A stretch of 64,000 nucleotides of DNA from Nocardioides coralli (GTDB taxonomy: Bacteria > Actinomycetota > Actinomycetes > Propionibacteriales > Nocardioidaceae), in contig NZ_CP082273.1 in assembly GCF_019880385.1 (NCBI RefSeq), positions 3,162,001 through 3,226,000 on the forward strand, in the 5' to 3' direction. The notes beneath the pieces were generated by a model, which was not told the origin of the DNA, made no database searches, and saw nothing but the letters and a program-made list of their open reading frames with translations. Position numbers and translations under genes: made by a program. Positions 45,609 to 59,242 of the stretch are shown piece by piece. How positions within the stretch are numbered: the stretch's first letter is position 1; every line of letters begins with the position of its first letter.

Positions 45609-46409
45609 GTGCCGGGGGAGACGACACACGGGCTGACGGCCGACTGCAGCCGATGCTTCGGCCTGTGCTGCGTGCTCCTGCCGTTCCGGCGGGAGGGTGG
45701 CTTCGGGGCCGACAAGGCCGGCGGGGTGCCGTGCGGCCACCTCGACGTCGACGACCACTGCACCATCCACGACACCCTGCGCCGGGACGGCTGGAGCGGC
45801 TGCGCGACGTTCGACTGCTTCGGCGCCGGCCAGCACGTCTCCCAGGTGATCTACGGCGGGGTCTCGTGGCGCGAGGGCGCGAACCTCGGGGAGATGGCCG
45901 CGGTGCTGTCGGTGGTGCGGCAGCTCCACGAGATGCTCTCCCACCTCGCTGAGGTGGGCCGGCGCGCGCCGGACCCGGACGCCGCCCGCCTGAGCGCGGA
46001 GATCGTCGCACTCACCCACGCCGAGCCCATCACGCTGCTCACCGCGGACCTCGACACGCTGCGGTCCCGGGTCAGCCCGGTGCTGCGGGCCGCGACCGTC
46101 CGGCTGCACGGGCGGGCGCAACCGATGCCGGCCGACCTCGTCGGGGCCGACCTGGCGGGTGCGGACCTCTCCCGCGCCGACCTGCGCGGGGCGAGCCTGG
46201 TCCGGGCCGACCTGCGCGGTGCCGAGCTGGCGCGGGCCGACCTGCTCGGAGCGGACCTGCGCGACGCCGACGTACGTGGCGCGCGACTCGGGCAGGCGTG
46301 GTTCGTGAGCCAGCCCCAGCTCAACGGGTCCGTCGGCGACGGCGCCACGACGATCCCGTCGCAGCTGACCCGCCCCGCGCACTGGGCCGACCGATCGCGC
46401 GCTCGGTAA
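45609..46409 (+). CDS. YkgJ-like Cys-cluster protein fused to pentapeptide repeats
   Basis: This 266-residue protein has two different parts. Residues 13-70 hold eight cysteines in the pattern C-x2-C-x3-CC, then Cys42, 51, 65 and 70. That resembles the YkgJ family of putative zinc- or iron-cluster proteins. Residues about 176-230 hold pentapeptide repeats of the A(D/N)LxG type (DLAGADLSRADLRGASLVRADL), which fold into a right-handed helix that can mimic DNA. A helical linker joins them. Its TAA stop lies inside palindrome copy C. Confidence 0.75.
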   Translation: MPGETTHGLTADCSRCFGLCCVLLPFRREGGFGADKAGGVPCGHLDVDDHCTIHDTLRRDGWSGCATFDCFGAGQHVSQVIYGGVSWREGANLGEMAAVLSVVRQLHEMLSHLAEVGRRAPDPDAARLSAEIVALTHAEPITLLTADLDTLRSRVSPVLRAATVRLHGRAQPMPADLVGADLAGADLSRADLRGASLVRADLRGAELARADLLGADLRDADVRGARLGQAWFVSQPQLNGSVGDGATTIPSQLTRPAHWADRSRAR

Positions 46410-53650: not shown

Positions 53651-54020
53651 CCCGGTGGTGTGGCCGCCCGGCTGGCGACGACGTCACTCCTCGCACGTCA
53701 CCACGGCGACCGCGCCCACGCCCCCCGACCAGCGGCCGGCCGCACGCCTGGAGCTGCGGGCCGGTGGGCCGCCGGCGTACTGCGTGGTGGAGGTGGAGGA
53801 CGAGGACGACTTCGACGTCGAGGGTCACTCCGTCCACTACCGCCGCCTCGGCCACCGCGAGGCGGGCGTGGAGGTGCTCAGCGAGGAGTGGACGTGGCTG
53901 GTCGACGGAGCCTCCTGGGTGCTGACCGGGACGGTGCGGCGCGAGGACTACCTCGCGGTGTGCGAGGTGTTCGAGGCCGTGGCGGCCTCCGTGGACGTGA
54001 CCTGGCTCAGGAGTCGATGA
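53637..54020 (+). CDS. DcrB/LpqN-like small protein, third gene of a WXG100-like operon
   Basis: This 127-residue protein has a mixed sheet pattern (YCVVEVEDEDDFDVEG..., SEEWTWLVDGASWVLTGTVRREDYLAVCEVFEAVAASVDV) like the DUF1795/DcrB-LpqN fold seen in some actinomycete envelope proteins. There is no signal peptide. It overlaps the previous gene by 14 bases and the facing MFS gene tail-to-tail by 14 bases. Confidence 0.5.
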   Translation: MSSLDPVVWPPGWRRRHSSHVTTATAPTPPDQRPAARLELRAGGPPAYCVVEVEDEDDFDVEGHSVHYRRLGHREAGVEVLSEEWTWLVDGASWVLTGTVRREDYLAVCEVFEAVAASVDVTWLRSR

Positions 54021-55305
54021 CCTCTCCGGCCGCACGCCGTCGCTCGCGCTCGGCCACGGCGTGCGGATCGGTGCGCTCGTCGTAGTCCCAGAAGTCGCGC
54101 AGCATCGCGGCGGTGATGGCCACGCCCATGACGCAGGCGAAGCCGCCGCTGGCGATCGATCCCCGCACCGACCAGAGGTCGGCCACGAGACCCGCTCGCA
54201 CCTGGCCGCCGAGCGGCCCGACGGAGTAGGACAGCATCTCGATCCCCGCGAGGCGACCGCGCATCGACTCGGGGATCGTCTGGTTCCACACGGTGGTGCG
54301 GAAGATCCCCGAGATCATGTCGGCGGTGCCCGAGAGCATGAGGAACAGGGCGACCAGCCACAGGCTCGGCATCAGGCCCGCCAGACCGATGCAGGCGCCG
54401 TACGCCGCCGCCGAGATCACCACGGCCCGCCCGTGGTGGTGGACCCGACCGATCCAGCCGCTGGAGGCGGTGGCGATGATCGCACCCACGGTCTCGGCGG
54501 AGTAGAGGAGGCCGAGCAGCTCGGGGCGCCGGAAGATGTCCTCGACCAGGGCCGGGAACAGCACCACCGGCATGGCGAGGAACATCGCGGCGATGTCGAC
54601 GAGGTAGGTGCCGAGCAGGTCGCGGCGGCGCACGGCGTAGGCGATCCCCTGGCGGATGCCGGCGAGGCTGGGGGGCGTGGTCTCCTCGCGGTGCGGGTAG
54701 GGGCGCATCAAGAAGAACAGCACCGAGGCGATGACGAGCCCGACCACGTCGACGACGAAGCACCAGCCGATGCCGACGAAGGCGATCAGGAGTCCGCCGG
54801 TGGCCGGTCCGACGAGCACGCCGATCTGCATGCCGAAGCTGCTGAGCGCGTTGGCCGCGGCGATCTGGTCGTGCCGCACCGTGCGCGGCATCAGCGCCTC
54901 GCGGCTGGGACGCTGCATCGCCGAGCTCGCCGCCAGCAGCCCGGCCATCACGAAGATCAGCGGGATGCTCGGGTCGGCGCGGAAGGCGTTGACCGCCAGC
55001 ACCGCGGTGAACACCGCCTGCGCGACGCCACAGGCCACCAGCAGTCGACGGCGATCGACGTGGTCGGCCAGCGCCCCGCCGTACAGGCCGAAGACGACCA
55101 GGGGCACGAGCTCGGCCAGGCCGATCGCGCCGACGAGGAGGTTGGAACCGGTGAGCCGGTAGACCTGGAAGGGGATGGCGACGTAGGAGACCATCGCGCC
55201 GAAGTAGAAGACGGTGCCGGCGGTGAAGAGCAGCCTGAAGTCGCGGGACTCCCGCAGCGGCGTGAGGTCCATCCGCATCGCGCGCAGCCGGTCCCGCAGG
55301 GTCAC
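54007..55305 (-). CDS. MFS transporter (EntS/MFS_3-like)
   Basis: This 432-residue membrane protein has about twelve hydrophobic segments. It shows the MFS_3 pattern FRLLFTAGTVFYFGAMVSYVAIPFQVYRLT (in pieces), GGALADHVDRRRLL in loop 2-3, and ANALSSFGMQIGVLVGPATGG. Relatives export siderophores and macrolides. It lies 99 bases after the P450 gene on the same strand. It could carry that enzyme's product, but it may be an independent gene. The GTG at 55305 is not supported by a clear promoter or ribosome-binding site. Confidence 0.85.
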   Translation of the reverse strand: MTLRDRLRAMRMDLTPLRESRDFRLLFTAGTVFYFGAMVSYVAIPFQVYRLTGSNLLVGAIGLAELVPLVVFGLYGGALADHVDRRRLLVACGVAQAVFTAVLAVNAFRADPSIPLIFVMAGLLAASSAMQRPSREALMPRTVRHDQIAAANALSSFGMQIGVLVGPATGGLLIAFVGIGWCFVVDVVGLVIASVLFFLMRPYPHREETTPPSLAGIRQGIAYAVRRRDLLGTYLVDIAAMFLAMPVVLFPALVEDIFRRPELLGLLYSAETVGAIIATASSGWIGRVHHHGRAVVISAAAYGACIGLAGLMPSLWLVALFLMLSGTADMISGIFRTTVWNQTIPESMRGRLAGIEMLSYSVGPLGGQVRAGLVADLWSVRGSIASGGFACVMGVAITAAMLRDFWDYDERTDPHAVAERERRRAAGEVIDS

Positions 55306-55404
55306 AACTGGTCATGGTGGCACCGGGACGCGCCGCGCCTCACCCCATTTTGCGGGTCCGCGCGTCCAGACGGGCGGACCCACCGACCCGGTGGTCGCCC
55401 GTCG

Positions 55405-56781
55405 CTAGGTGGTGACGCGGATCCGGGCACCTCGCCGGGGGACGCTGGTGATGTTGCGGACCAGCGGCCGGTCGCGGCCGACGCTCTCGACGCCGTAGGC
55501 CGTGAACACCTCGCGCAGCACCTCCACGCCCTCCATCAGCGAGAACCCCGCGCCGATGCACCGGCGGACCCCGCCGCCGAAGGGGATCCAGGTGTTGGGC
55601 GCGGGGTTCTGCCCGACGAAGCGCTCGGGACGGAACCGGTCGGGATCGTCGTGGTTGTCGGCGCGGGCGTGCGCCACCAGGATCGAGGGACCCACGGTCA
55701 CCCCCGCGGGCAGCTCGTGGCCACCGATCGTGGCCGGTCGCATCAGCGTCCGGGCGACCATCGGGATCACCGGGTGCAGGCGCATCGACTCCTTCAGCAC
55801 CGCCTCGAGCCAGGCGTCGTCGCCCTCGCGCGCCGCGGCGCGCGCCCGGGCGAGCTGGTCGGGGTCGCGTCCGACCTCGTGGAGTGCCCAGGCCAGCGCG
55901 CTGGCGGTCGTCTCGTGGCCGGCGAGCAGCAGCGTGACCAGCTGGTCGCGGAGCTCCTCGTCGGTCAGCCGGTCGCCCCCCTCGTCGACCAGGATCAGCT
56001 GCGAGAGGACGTCGGTCCTGGACGCGAGGTCGGGCGCGCTCCGGCGCTCCCGGATCTCGTCGTACATCAGCCGGTCGAGGGCGTAGGAGTTGTCGACGGC
56101 CGCCTTCCACGGGCCGAACCGCTGCAGCCTCGGGTAGCCCCAGCCCATCAGCACGGCCGGGCCGACGTCGACCGTGCGGTTCACGCGAGGACGCAGAGCG
56201 GCCAGGCGTTCCTCGTCGGTGACGCCGAAGACGACCCGCAGGATCACCTCGAGCGTCAACGCGTTCATCCGGTCGAGGGCCCGGAGGGTCTGACCCGGCC
56301 GCCAGCCCGACACCTCCGACCTGGCGACCTCGGCCACCAGGTCGCGGTAGCCGCGCAGCGCGTGACCGTTGAACGCCGGCATCAGCAGCCGTCGGGCGCG
56401 CTTGTGCTCACCGCCGTCCTGCAGGAGCAGCGAGTGCTCGCCCATGATCGGGCCGAGGATCGCGTTGCCCTTGCCGGCGTGGAAGATCTCGGGGTCGCCG
56501 GCGAAGATCTCCTTGGCGTGCTCGGGCCGGGTGAACAGCACGAGGGGCTGGCCCTTCGGGAGGATCCTCACCGTGAAGACGTCGCCGTAACGACGGTGGA
56601 GCCACGGCACGGAGGAGTGGCGGAAGCGGAGCAGCGCCACGCTCTGGGCGAGCCACGGCCAGTGGGGTCCGGGCGGCAGCACGCCGGCGTCGACCGCTGG
56701 CGGGGCGGCGCCGCCGAAGGGCTGCATCCTCTCCAGGCGTCGCTGGGTGGCCCTGGTGATGTCGTCCTCGAGCATCGACAT
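55405..56781 (-). CDS. Cytochrome P450
   Basis: This 458-residue heme monooxygenase has the oxygen-binding I-helix AGHETT (287-292), the ExxR pair Glu331/Arg334 in KESMRLHP, and the heme loop FGGGVRRCIG with Cys408 as axial ligand. There is no membrane anchor, as usual for bacterial P450s. The ATG at 56781 (MSMLEDD) is chosen because TAGTAT ends seven bases upstream; the ATG at 56790 lies within that promoter. It follows a [2Fe-2S] protein gene by 57 bases, which could supply electrons (inference). Confidence 0.93.
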   Translation of the reverse strand: MSMLEDDITRATQRRLERMQPFGGAAPPAVDAGVLPPGPHWPWLAQSVALLRFRHSSVPWLHRRYGDVFTVRILPKGQPLVLFTRPEHAKEIFAGDPEIFHAGKGNAILGPIMGEHSLLLQDGGEHKRARRLLMPAFNGHALRGYRDLVAEVARSEVSGWRPGQTLRALDRMNALTLEVILRVVFGVTDEERLAALRPRVNRTVDVGPAVLMGWGYPRLQRFGPWKAAVDNSYALDRLMYDEIRERRSAPDLASRTDVLSQLILVDEGGDRLTDEELRDQLVTLLLAGHETTASALAWALHEVGRDPDQLARARAAAREGDDAWLEAVLKESMRLHPVIPMVARTLMRPATIGGHELPAGVTVGPSILVAHARADNHDDPDRFRPERFVGQNPAPNTWIPFGGGVRRCIGAGFSLMEGVEVLREVFTAYGVESVGRDRPLVRNITSVPRRGARIRVTT

Positions 56782-56788
56782 GCTCGGC

Positions 56789-56794
56789 ATACTA
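56789..56794 (-). promoter_or_regulatory. -10 of the leaderless P450 transcript
   Basis: The minus strand reads TAGTAT seven bases before the ATG at 56781. It suggests that the P450 can be transcribed apart from the peptide-cupin-ferredoxin genes. Confidence 0.6.
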
Positions 56795-56838: not shown

Positions 56839-57738
56839 TCAGGGCAGCCGACGTACGTCGATGACCTCGTGCCGTGGCACGGGGCTGGTGCGGGCGGCGC
56901 GGCAGGTCAGCTGCTGCGGCCCGCCGTGGCTCGTGCGGACGGCCAGCTGCCAGCCCACCCCGCCGACGTCGAAGACGACGTGCAGCACGCCGTCCTCGCC
57001 GCGGCGCCGCGACCGGAGCCTGACGGCGTCGAGCCGGGTCTCGCCCAGCTGACGACGCAGGGCGATCTCGGCGGCCTGCACCGGCATCGGGTAACCGGAC
57101 CGGCCGCGCAGGTGGTCGAGGTCGACCTCGCCGGAGAGGTGGGAGCCGGCCACTGCGACGGCCGAGACCGCGTCGAGCCGTCCGTAGTAGAGCCCGTGCG
57201 GCAGGAAGAGCGCGTTGCCGGCGAACCGGTCACCGCCGATGTGCGAGATCTCCCAGGCGAGGTCGGGGTGGGCGGCGGCCAGTGCCGCCGCCACCGGTCG
57301 TCCACGCTCGGCGCAGCAGGCGTCGTGCCGACCGTGGGTGCACACCCCGAGGACCGGGTCGGCGGTCACCTCGAGACCGGTCGAGCGACCCGCGCCGAGG
57401 GCCGCGAGGTCGAGATCGAGCAGCTGCTCGGCGTCCTCGAGCTGCGTGGTCTCGAGCCAGGGCCGGTGGGGGTGGGCGTAGGCCGCGAATACCCGGAACC
57501 CGTGCCGGGGCGCCGCCCGGCGGTGGCGCCGGACCAGGTTGATGCGCACGCCCGCTGCCCGCGCAGCGTCCGCCAGGGGGCGCTTGACCGCCTCGGGCAT
57601 GCGGTTGTCGCGGACCGCGTCGAGGCCCCACGGACCGGGGTTCTCCACGAGCAGGAAGGCCCGCACCGTCGAGGCGGTGCCGGCCTGGTCGTCGCCGCGC
57701 AGGCCACTGGCCAACGCGCAGCGGAACGAGTCGGTCAC
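56839..57738 (-). CDS. Sucrase/ferredoxin-like [2Fe-2S] protein
   Basis: This 299-residue protein matches the Suc/Fer-like family of thioredoxin-fold ferredoxins. GVCTHGRHDACCAERGRPVA carries Cys133, Cys141 and Cys142, and EISHIGGDRFAGNALFLPHG (164-182 region) holds the conserved His. It probably holds a [2Fe-2S] cluster and passes electrons. Its GTG overlaps the stop of the cupin oxygenase gene (GTGA), so the two are made together. A role as redox partner of that oxygenase or of the P450 is inferred. Confidence 0.82.
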   Translation of the reverse strand: MTDSFRCALASGLRGDDQAGTASTVRAFLLVENPGPWGLDAVRDNRMPEAVKRPLADAARAAGVRINLVRRHRRAAPRHGFRVFAAYAHPHRPWLETTQLEDAEQLLDLDLAALGAGRSTGLEVTADPVLGVCTHGRHDACCAERGRPVAAALAAAHPDLAWEISHIGGDRFAGNALFLPHGLYYGRLDAVSAVAVAGSHLSGEVDLDHLRGRSGYPMPVQAAEIALRRQLGETRLDAVRLRSRRRGEDGVLHVVFDVGGVGWQLAVRTSHGGPQQLTCRAARTSPVPRHEVIDVRRLP

Positions 57739-58868
57739 CCCACGACCCGCAGCAGGCCCTCGCGGACCAGCCGCCGGCAGAGCACCAGGCGGCTCTCGGG
57801 GTCGAGGTGACCGGCCAGGTCACCCGGCGACAGCTCCTCGGCGGCGCGGACCTGCTCGAGGGCGGGTCGCAGGTAGCCGGGGACGTCGAGGGTCCGGTCG
57901 CCGAGCAGCACACGCAGCCCGTCGGCGGTGTCGACCAGCACGCAGGGATGTCCGACGCGGCGGACGAGCCGCGTGGTGTCGTCGAGCCGGTCGAGCGACG
58001 CCAGGTCGCGCAGGCCCCCGGCGAGCCGGGTGCCGCGGTGGGAGAGGAACCGCTCGACGTGGGCCATCCCGGCGACCTCGGGGTCGAGCCGGCGTACGTC
58101 GTCGGCGACCGCGGTCAGCTGCTCGCGGAGCCCGGCGACGAGGGCGTCGGGGTCGTCGAGGTAGCCGGCGGGCAGGTGGCTGTCGGGCACCCGGGCCAGG
58201 ACGCCCGCGAGGCTGCGCTCCACCAGGGTGCGCCACGTGAGCTGGTTGATGCCGAGCGTCACGTGGAGCGACATCGACTCCTGGGACCGAGCGGCGTGCG
58301 GCGTGCCGGTCGGCAGGTACATCGAGACGCCGGGCTCGAGGAGCACGTCGTCGACGCGGTCCTCCGTGTGGACCTCCCAGCGCTTGTCGCCGTGGGTCTG
58401 GAAGACGAAGACGTCGTGGCTGTCGGAGTGCACGGCGAAGCCCTGGGCGCCCGGCGGGGTGAGGTAGGCGTTGGCCTGGCAGGGGTGGCCGAGCTCGAGC
58501 TCGAGCTCGGCGACGAGGTCGCGCAGCGGCGGCCAGTAGCGGTGAAGCCCCTGCAGCACCGCGGTCGCACCGTCCTCGACCTGCTCCAGGAGGCGGCGCG
58601 CGTCGACCAGCCCGGTGAGGGCCTTGCCGGCGAGCGAGGCGCCCCGGCGGGTGTACCCGGACTCGGGGAGCACCGAGCCGTCCTTGGCGAGCCTGACCGA
58701 GGGTGTGCGGATCGCCGTCTCGGTCAGCAGGTGGTCGACGTCGTCGAGGGAGAGCATCCCCACGAGCCGCTCGGGCTCGGTGTGGTGGATGTGGACGCGG
58801 GTCGCCCAGACCTTCGCGACAAAGGTCTGGGCGTCACCGCTGAGGAGGTCGAGGGCGTTCAGGGCCAC
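57735..58868 (-). CDS. JmjC-like cupin (ROXA-type) oxygenase
   Basis: This 377-residue protein of the cupin_4/JmjC group contains Fe(II)- and 2-oxoglutarate-dependent hydroxylases of protein side chains, such as the ribosomal oxygenases. The iron ligands are visible: His147 and Asp149 in GFAVHSDSHDVFVFQ, and His191 in YLPTGTPHAARSQE, followed by SLHVTLGI. A helical C-terminal region follows, as in that family. The GTG start abuts the stop of the Asp-repeat peptide gene with no gap (TGAGTG), and it overlaps the ferredoxin gene downstream. The peptide is the obvious candidate substrate. Confidence 0.85.
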   Translation of the reverse strand: MALNALDLLSGDAQTFVAKVWATRVHIHHTEPERLVGMLSLDDVDHLLTETAIRTPSVRLAKDGSVLPESGYTRRGASLAGKALTGLVDARRLLEQVEDGATAVLQGLHRYWPPLRDLVAELELELGHPCQANAYLTPPGAQGFAVHSDSHDVFVFQTHGDKRWEVHTEDRVDDVLLEPGVSMYLPTGTPHAARSQESMSLHVTLGINQLTWRTLVERSLAGVLARVPDSHLPAGYLDDPDALVAGLREQLTAVADDVRRLDPEVAGMAHVERFLSHRGTRLAGGLRDLASLDRLDDTTRLVRRVGHPCVLVDTADGLRVLLGDRTLDVPGYLRPALEQVRAAEELSPGDLAGHLDPESRLVLCRRLVREGLLRVVG

Positions 58869-59198
58869 TCAGGCATCAGTCCCGTCCGCGTCGCCGTCGC
58901 TGGCGTCGGCCGCATCGCCGTCGGTGCCGTCGGCGTCGCCGTCAGTTCCGTCCGCGTCGCCGTCACTGGCGTCGGTCGCGTCGCCGTCAGTTCCGTCCGC
59001 GTCGCCGTCACTGGCGTCGGTCGCGTCGCCGTCGGTGCCGTCCGCGTCGCCGTCGCTCGCGTCGTGCGCGTCGCCGTCGGTGCCGTCGGCGTCGCCGTCG
59101 GTCGCGTCCGCGTCGGAGGGCATCGAGGAGGCCGTGGGCCCACCTCCGGTGGTCATGTCGTCGTCGCTGAGCGGGTTGCCCTGGTCGTCGGGAGTCAT
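58869..59198 (-). CDS. Asp-repeat peptide, candidate modified precursor
   Basis: This 109-residue protein has 38 Asp and no Lys, Arg, Cys, Phe, Tyr or Trp. A leader-like part (1-29, MTPDDQGNPLSDDDMTTGGG...) precedes a repeat part made of the 15-residue unit DGDADGTDGDAxDAS. There are about four units and a final part-unit, one unit carrying a seven-residue insert. The DxDxDG spacing recalls calcium-binding loops. AGGAGG four bases before the ATG at 59198 is the strongest ribosome-binding site in this region. The stop touches the oxygenase start. It may be a RiPP-like substrate, a metal-binding protein or a disordered linker protein. Confidence 0.75.
   Translation of the reverse strand: MTPDDQGNPLSDDDMTTGGGPTASSMPSDADATDGDADGTDGDAHDASDGDADGTDGDATDASDGDADGTDGDATDASDGDADGTDGDADGTDGDAADASDGDADGTDA
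58933..59067. repeat. 45-bp tandem repeat inside the Asp-repeat gene
   Basis: Two perfect 45-base copies (58933-58977 and 58978-59022) are followed by a third (59023-59067) with a few changes. They encode the 15-residue unit. The perfect copies point to recent duplication, and the copy number probably varies between strains. Confidence 0.9.
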
Positions 59199-59242
59199 CG
59201 AGCCTCCTGGGGTGGTCGGGCGGCCGGTCCGCCCGTACGGCG

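Follow-up and report, generated by a model that had tools for sequence, protein, structure and literature searches.

What does a small protein built from near-identical Asp-rich units do when its gene lies directly ahead of that of a predicted oxygenase? This question is raised by a locus of the actinomycete Nocardioides coralli, located in a stretch of 64,000 nucleotides (contig NZ_CP082273.1, positions 3,162,001 to 3,226,000) that we call the window. The locus comprises three genes. The first encodes a protein of 109 residues that consists largely of Asp/Gly/Thr repeats, the second a JmjC_2/cupin_4 protein, named here the cupin, and the third a Suc_Fer-like protein (Table 1). The GTG start codon of the cupin gene begins at the base next to the TGA of the repeat open reading frame (ORF), with zero spacing, and the cupin and Suc_Fer-like genes overlap by four bases (57735-57738). 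An earlier note on this DNA had described this layout, including the AGGAGG site ahead of the repeat ORF, and the sequence of the window confirms it. Our overall reading, to which we give a probability of about 0.6, is that the repeat protein would be a dedicated substrate of the adjacent oxygenase, similar to the precursor of a ribosomally synthesized and post-translationally modified peptide (RiPP). The source genome has a single JmjC_2 gene and a single Suc_Fer-like gene, both in this trio, and only one match to the repeat protein. For the latter, Pfam, NCBIfam and PHROGs gave no matching family. Its gene contains a tandem array, found for example by Tandem Repeats Finder (TRF) at 58883-59108 with a period of 45 and 5.0 copies.

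Table 1 Features of the repeat-cupin locus in the window.
Feature	Coordinates	Strand	Details
Asp-repeat protein, proposed multi-core substrate (precursor)	59198..58869 including stop	minus	109 amino acids; from sequence
TGA stop of repeat ORF	58871..58869	minus	coding part 59198..58872
AGGAGG ribosome-binding site	59208..59203	minus	4 bases ahead of the repeat-ORF ATG; from sequence
N-terminal leader-like segment, residues 1-28	59115..59198	minus	PLSDDDMTT is residues 9-17 (59148-59174)
Repeat core, residues 29-109	58872..59114	minus	units such as DGDADGTDGDATDAS
JmjC_2/cupin_4 (ribosomal-oxygenase-like), predicted Fe(II)/2-oxoglutarate oxygenase	58868..57735	minus	GTG start, 377 amino acids
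Suc_Fer-like (Apd1-like ferredoxin-domain) protein, D-type	57738..56839	minus	299 amino acids; PF06999

The region upstream of the cupin gene was compared in four surveys, whose genome sets overlap. Among relatives of the source genome, a cupin match was present in 33 of 58 genomes, and a repeat ORF was found upstream in 29 of the 30 fetched loci (17 of type A and 12 of type B, as defined below). The remaining locus, L030, has a nitroreductase/ThcOx-like gene upstream of a related cupin, and is possibly a different peptide-modifying cluster. The named-genome survey covered the best 80 of 578 confirmed candidate loci, in two of which (L075 and L085) the sequence upstream is missing; an Asp-rich repeat ORF lies in 77 of the other 78, L106 being unclear. 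In the class survey, 76 of 394 genomes, the source genome included, have a high-scoring cupin. When the source's own locus was set aside, 74 of 75 loci passed an automatic composition test for an Asp-rich ORF, and 73 contain real repeats, all but L165 and L174, which are from one genus. The phylum survey found a cupin at E≤1e-60 in 40 of 296 genomes and a repeat ORF in 28 of the 29 loci examined, with 11 places left unexamined; eight of these 29 loci repeat class-survey genomes, and L252 is from the genome of L165. These counts were corrected by eye where the composition test had missed a visible repeat (L023) or had passed an acidic, non-repetitive ORF (L174). The named hosts include Nocardioides, Aeromicrobium, Micropruina, Propioniciclava, Piscicoccus, Halosaccharopolyspora, Micromonospora and Actinokineospora, as well as Acidimicrobiia, Nitriliruptoraceae and one Chloroflexi bin. 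In the plasmid collection there were only lower-identity cupins (the best records are below 60%, and none covers 80% of the query), and the phage collection gave no cupin match. That the repeat ORF belongs with the oxygenase, as the earlier note had proposed, is borne out by these surveys, and the check that it had named as refuting, for a repeat ORF absent beside otherwise conserved cupin/ferredoxin pairs, was run on them and did not refute it. All clear exceptions that have upstream sequence (L030, L106 and the genus of L165/L174, to which L252 belongs) also have no adjacent Suc_Fer-like gene.

The pairing can also be seen within the genus. A DNA pattern for the type-A repeat (DGTDxDxxD) was applied to 36 same-genus genomes, and at least two matches were found in 14 of the 16 that have a type-A cupin, compared with 0 of the 20 that have none, three of which have one match. 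The two shortfalls are G031, with one match, and G004, with none, though the repeat ORF of G004 is visible in its locus; some second matches in G025, G026 and G006 are located elsewhere in the genome. A candidate precursor gene that is kept next to that of its putative modifying enzyme, as expected of a RiPP, is what the four surveys and the control windows described below reveal. The distance between the two genes is less constant. From the stop of the repeat ORF to the modelled cupin start, it ranges from -4 to 178 bases in 46 type-A loci (median 7) and from 1 to 109 bases in 46 type-B loci (median 51), so that the matched synthesis which the earlier note had deduced from zero spacing is not supported.

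The repeat proteins have two main core types. Type A consists of units such as DGDADGTDGDATD, and type B of units such as EGPADGGAxGTPGVxDGGADGGA. Precursors were labelled by their repeat, four exceptions being hand-labelled as none. Dereplication at 75% identity left 122 of the 219 loci, from which a quick tree was made. On the tree of 92 cupins with either type (46 A and 46 B), the core label changes once, with a support of 99, and none of 500 shuffles of the label was as low. The split is not simply that of the species tree, because both types occur within the genus and the family of the window. Locus L232, in which no adjacent Suc_Fer-like gene was detected, has a third type of repeat, ADGTDQGVxGGTxGPRDA, ahead of its cupin gene.

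The N-terminal segment is leader-like. Within the first 40 residues, a motif like L.D(D/E)(D/E)(I/M).T occurs in 41 of 46 type-A proteins, where shuffles gave a mean of 3.4 and a maximum of 8, and in 23 of 46 type-B proteins, where they gave a mean of 1.6 and a maximum of 6. For these counts the start codons were picked by their ribosome-binding site, and counts of ribosome sites, which are therefore biased, were not used. Core composition was measured in the last 45 residues of the same number of proteins. All 92 cores contain Asp, at least 10 residues in type A and at least 6 in type B, and no core contains Cys. Lys and Arg are lacking in 35 of 46 cores of each type, Asn in 44 type-A and 32 type-B cores, and His in 38 and 15 cores, respectively. 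The residues oxidised by known relatives of the enzyme are Arg, His, Lys and Asn. Since these targets are mostly missing from the cores, Asp is the most likely site, and we consider it likely to be the main one if the repeat protein is indeed a substrate.

Could the repeat ORF be a low-complexity, GC-rich tract that by chance or drift stayed open beside the cupin gene? The genome has a high GC content and the repeats are in tandem, which speaks for this explanation. However, it is already refuted by the conservation of the ORF across many families, and the core type that tracks the cupin tree speaks against it as well. Furthermore, when 129 pairs of codons for the same residue were compared between repeat copies, all 33 base differences fell at codon position 3, and among all 150 codon pairs the differences number 16, 14 and 36 at positions 1, 2 and 3. 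The composition test is passed by 15 of 3730 overlapping control windows located away from the cupin, so that an Asp-rich ORF upstream of the cupin is not a product of chance; in a looser control, in which the loci include the repeat genes themselves, 313 of 5040 random positions pass. Based on the codon-position bias and the rate in the control windows, we rejected a chance ORF, which is next to impossible.

The cupin matches Pfam family JmjC_2 (PF08007; E 3.6e-19, 69 bits against a gathering cut-off of 22). By profile, the solved structures nearest to it are NO66 (1.4e-35), MINA (5.5e-32), YxbC (2.7e-18) and YcfD (1.8e-13), and the NO66 match is full length, covering positions 12-381; its matches in PHROGs are to families of unknown function only. 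The alignment to NO66 assigns H147, D149 and H191 as predicted Fe ligands and K162 as the predicted 2-oxoglutarate-binding residue. These four residues are invariant in all 69 rows of the cupin alignment, as are H151 and H202. R54 and R59 are also invariant, and both fall into a gap of the NO66 alignment. The targets of NO66, MINA53 and YcfD (RoxA) are His or Arg residues of ribosomal proteins. The cupin resembles these PF08007 enzymes in its full-length profile match (NO66) and in the HxD...H iron motif and Lys that it has kept, but its gene adjoins an Asp-repeat ORF, and the cores are mostly without Arg and Lys and, in type A, mostly without His.

Enzymes of this kind that modify peptides have been described. 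Passages of two papers present BipG (biphenomycin) and PbsQ as iron/2-oxoglutarate JmjC/cupin hydroxylases that act on a precursor peptide (PMC12707348, PMC12257519). As in the present locus, a JmjC-type enzyme goes with a gene-encoded precursor, here a candidate one; however, those enzymes hydroxylate one Arg-derived ornithine and their clusters are large, whereas here the candidate substrate, a many-copy Asp repeat, is part of a three-gene set. A passage of PMC12710340 describes PF08007 proteins of fish and algae that are fused to folds like the RiPP recognition element (RRE), and places their closest bacterial JmjC homologues in RiPP-like contexts; that passage names neither Asp-repeat precursors nor a Suc_Fer-like partner. 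In PflC and PosC, which the relevant part of PMC12636437 describes as HEXXH, 2-oxoglutarate-dependent, multi-Gln hydroxylases, like residues in a run of the precursor are repeatedly hydroxylated, by another enzyme family and at another residue. The Asp-repeat family itself, including the repeat strings, was not found described in the open-access literature, subscription papers being outside the scope of the search. This points to a family so far undescribed that would undergo a known kind of modification, of the RiPP-like sort.

The third gene encodes a member of PF06999 (E 1.3e-16, 61.7 bits against a gathering cut-off of 34.9), and the [2Fe-2S] label that may be given to it comes from this family. 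The window protein has C133, C141, C142, H166 and D170, the last two within HIGGD. In the alignment, the Cys residues and the first His are kept in 67 of 67 sequences, while 65 of 67 have Asp in place of the second His. We take the Asp of HxGGx to be at an Apd1 ligand position, from the place of the motif. Of the 186 loci with a cupin score of at least 255, 167 have a D-type Suc_Fer-like gene next to the cupin gene, 17 have none there and 2 have no room for it; by survey, a Suc_Fer-like gene is adjacent in 29 of 30 loci of the relatives, 74 of 80 named loci and 64 of 75 class-survey loci. Adjacent copies have HxGGD in 162 of 166 cases (of the rest, one has C, one has E and two could not be parsed). 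In contrast, 28 of 35 non-adjacent copies, of which 20 were hand-picked and fetched, have HxGGH and 7 have HxGGD. The cluster of Apd1, a protein of the same Pfam family, is a [2Fe-2S] cluster bound by two Cys and two His, as given in a passage of PMC11126956; trio-linked members differ from this type in their Asp, while stand-alone copies mostly have His.

Four of the 7 non-adjacent HxGGD copies are in genomes (G103, G121, G136 and G150) in which the repeat-cupin pair has no adjacent copy, as if the protein were supplied from elsewhere in the genome. Three other genomes with a repeat-cupin pair (G152, G175 and G253) are outside the 211 of 394 genomes that have a Suc_Fer-like match at E≤1e-20, and they count against an essential role of this protein. 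Moreover, the Suc_Fer-like family is common outside the repeat-cupin system. The earlier note had the iron-sulfur protein serve the oxygenase. The adjacency in most loci agrees with this, while these three genomes and the class-survey cupins that have no adjacent copy do not, and to us an accessory redox or iron role has about even odds. A second Suc_Fer-like gene, of the HxGGH type, was observed together with the repeat-cupin-HxGGD trio in 14 loci, some of them from the same genome twice (L002, L010, L012, L014, L016, L053, L055, L057, L058, L063, L068, L094, L115 and L120).

More distant cupins have smaller neighbours. In 34 lower-scoring loci fetched from the class survey, the long repeat was found in none, and conserved short Asp/Gly peptides are encoded just upstream in 20. 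These form two families of ten loci each, neither of which has a Pfam or NCBIfam match. The first (L197, L203, L205-L210, L212 and L215) has a leader like LLVAVEEIAAxRSR and a core like QPSDGGGTGRSDTND, and the second (L198-L201, L204, L211, L213 and L216-L218) has a leader like FEVEVEDLAEVTSRD and a core like TAGGDSDGTDSSSDFI. The lower-scoring cupins are therefore not a clean negative control: 20 of the 34 have these short Asp/Gly peptides, and for this reason 7 of the 34 pass the automatic composition test. These loci suggest that a wider clade of cupins may act on adjacent Asp/Gly peptides, the system of the window being its multi-core form. Further upstream in L199, the ORF 897-1661 is presumably prolyl-oligopeptidase-like.

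That the repeat protein is the substrate of the oxygenase, which the earlier note had proposed, is our best reading because the core type tracks the enzyme tree and the N-terminus is leader-like. We regard it as very probable; the modification itself is a prediction from the genes, with hydroxylation most probably the reaction. Several observations weigh against this picture. The leader motif is missing from about half of the type-B proteins, and one type-B clade begins straight with the repeat, for example MSEQNPEGPADGGA. A very loose leader pattern, which matches 45 of 46 type-A and 38 of 46 type-B proteins, is uninformative, since the shuffle means are 36.4 and 23.3. Of the 75 class-survey cupins, 11 have no Suc_Fer-like gene next to them. 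In L165 and L174, both from one genus, the cupin is present but neither a repeat ORF nor an adjacent Suc_Fer-like gene is. No further conserved neighbour family, including an exporter, a protease or a tailoring gene, was found around the 80 named loci, in flanks of up to 6 kb. Export and protease genes are present in most, though not all, RiPP classes and may lie elsewhere, and because none for leader removal or export is conserved among the named loci, the system is filed as RiPP-like and not as a proven RiPP. Finally, Asp is not the sole candidate residue, as Gly and Ala are each present in 91 of 92 cores and Ser and Thr are also common. Upstream of the cupin in L165 and L174 there is a non-repetitive acidic ORF that ends in DDPELxGADLxEDQxxGxGPTxEPGA.

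The abundance of these other residues raises the question of whether the enzyme acts on Gly, Ala, Ser or Thr, or whether its chemistry goes beyond hydroxylation to desaturation, crosslinking or backbone cleavage. There are precedents: part of PMC12636437 describes other 2-oxoglutarate enzymes of RiPPs, which add hydroxyl groups to strings of Gln and cleave the backbone, and a reference title in PMC12710340 cites macrocyclization by a 2-oxoglutarate dioxygenase in RiPPs. However, Asp is kept in every core type seen, the short peptides included, and beta-hydroxy-Asp made by other enzyme families is a chemical precedent in RiPPs, according to passages of PMC13060819 and PMC12636437, which makes another site or chemistry unlikely in our view. 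Aspartimide chemistry at Asp-Gly was also considered; no methyltransferase family emerged among the neighbours of the 80 loci, where none was searched for by name. Such chemistry would be expected to involve a methyltransferase.

The repeat protein could instead be an acidic metal carrier or cofactor partner, which delivers iron or another cation to the oxygenase and the Suc_Fer-like protein or stabilises them. It is rich in Asp, its core has no Cys, like the other cores, and it is encoded with two predicted iron-binding proteins; moreover, with no conserved exporter or protease nearby, it may stay in the cell. A generic carrier, however, needs neither an N-terminal motif nor exact repeats that switch type with the enzyme clade, and the short single-core peptides beside the more distant cupins fit substrates better than carriers. 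We find this explanation quite improbable. Calcium binding, perhaps tuned by the oxygenase, which the earlier note had given as an alternative, is more doubtful still. The window protein has the sequence DGDADG, but within the last 45 residues just 2 of the 46 type-A proteins and none of the 46 type-B proteins have the DxDxDG loop, which was rejected as a shared feature, and no secretion signal was noticed in the sequences read by eye, to which no predictor was applied.

If the repeat protein is the substrate of the oxygenase, the system might work as follows. The repeat protein and the cupin would be translated in a coupled manner or close together. The precursor would carry an LxDDDIxT-like segment for recognition at its N-terminus, followed by a core in which nearly identical Asp-rich units recur many times; the enzyme would hold the leader or N-terminus and walk over the repeats. 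With Fe(II), O2 and 2-oxoglutarate, the core would be oxidised at many positions, most probably by beta-hydroxylation of Asp, to give a peptide of the poly-hydroxyaspartate type, and the Suc_Fer-like protein might, for example, provide the catalytic iron or return it to the reduced state through many turnovers. Because no exporter or protease is conserved among the 80 loci, the modified product may remain intracellular, as a polymer that binds cations. A wider and doubtful extension of this reading is that genetically encoded, long multi-core poly-hydroxyaspartate proteins occur phylum-wide, with dozens of Asp residues oxidised by a dedicated ribosomal-oxygenase-like enzyme, a specialised Asp-ligated iron-sulfur partner, an uncleaved intracellular polymer that binds iron or other cations and is not exported as a natural product, and single-core sister families, the short SDGGGTGRSDTND and GGDSDGTDSSSDFI peptides, which would be served by related enzymes.

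Other features of the window stand apart from the trio. Downstream of it, on the same strand, are genes for a cytochrome P450 and a major facilitator superfamily (MFS) transporter (54007-56790). P450, MFS and LuxR-type neighbours were rejected as parts of the system, being near just 5, 7 and 17 of the 80 named loci, respectively. The scan for promoters and terminators found nothing. At 46130-46271 there is a 15-base tandem array with a unit of about GGCCGACCTGCGCGG, possibly from a pentapeptide-repeat protein.

Family libraries miss these systems, as the repeat proteins tested match nothing in Pfam or NCBIfam. If our reading is right, a broadly distributed family of modified peptides would be added, given that the cupin is present in 76 of the 394 class-survey and 40 of the 296 phylum-survey genomes, and the orphan JmjC_2 oxygenases of one clade would gain a substrate. 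The enzyme may then be one that places many hydroxyl groups on Asp within one chain, and the Suc_Fer-like ferredoxins that are distinguished by their Asp would be tied to a pathway.

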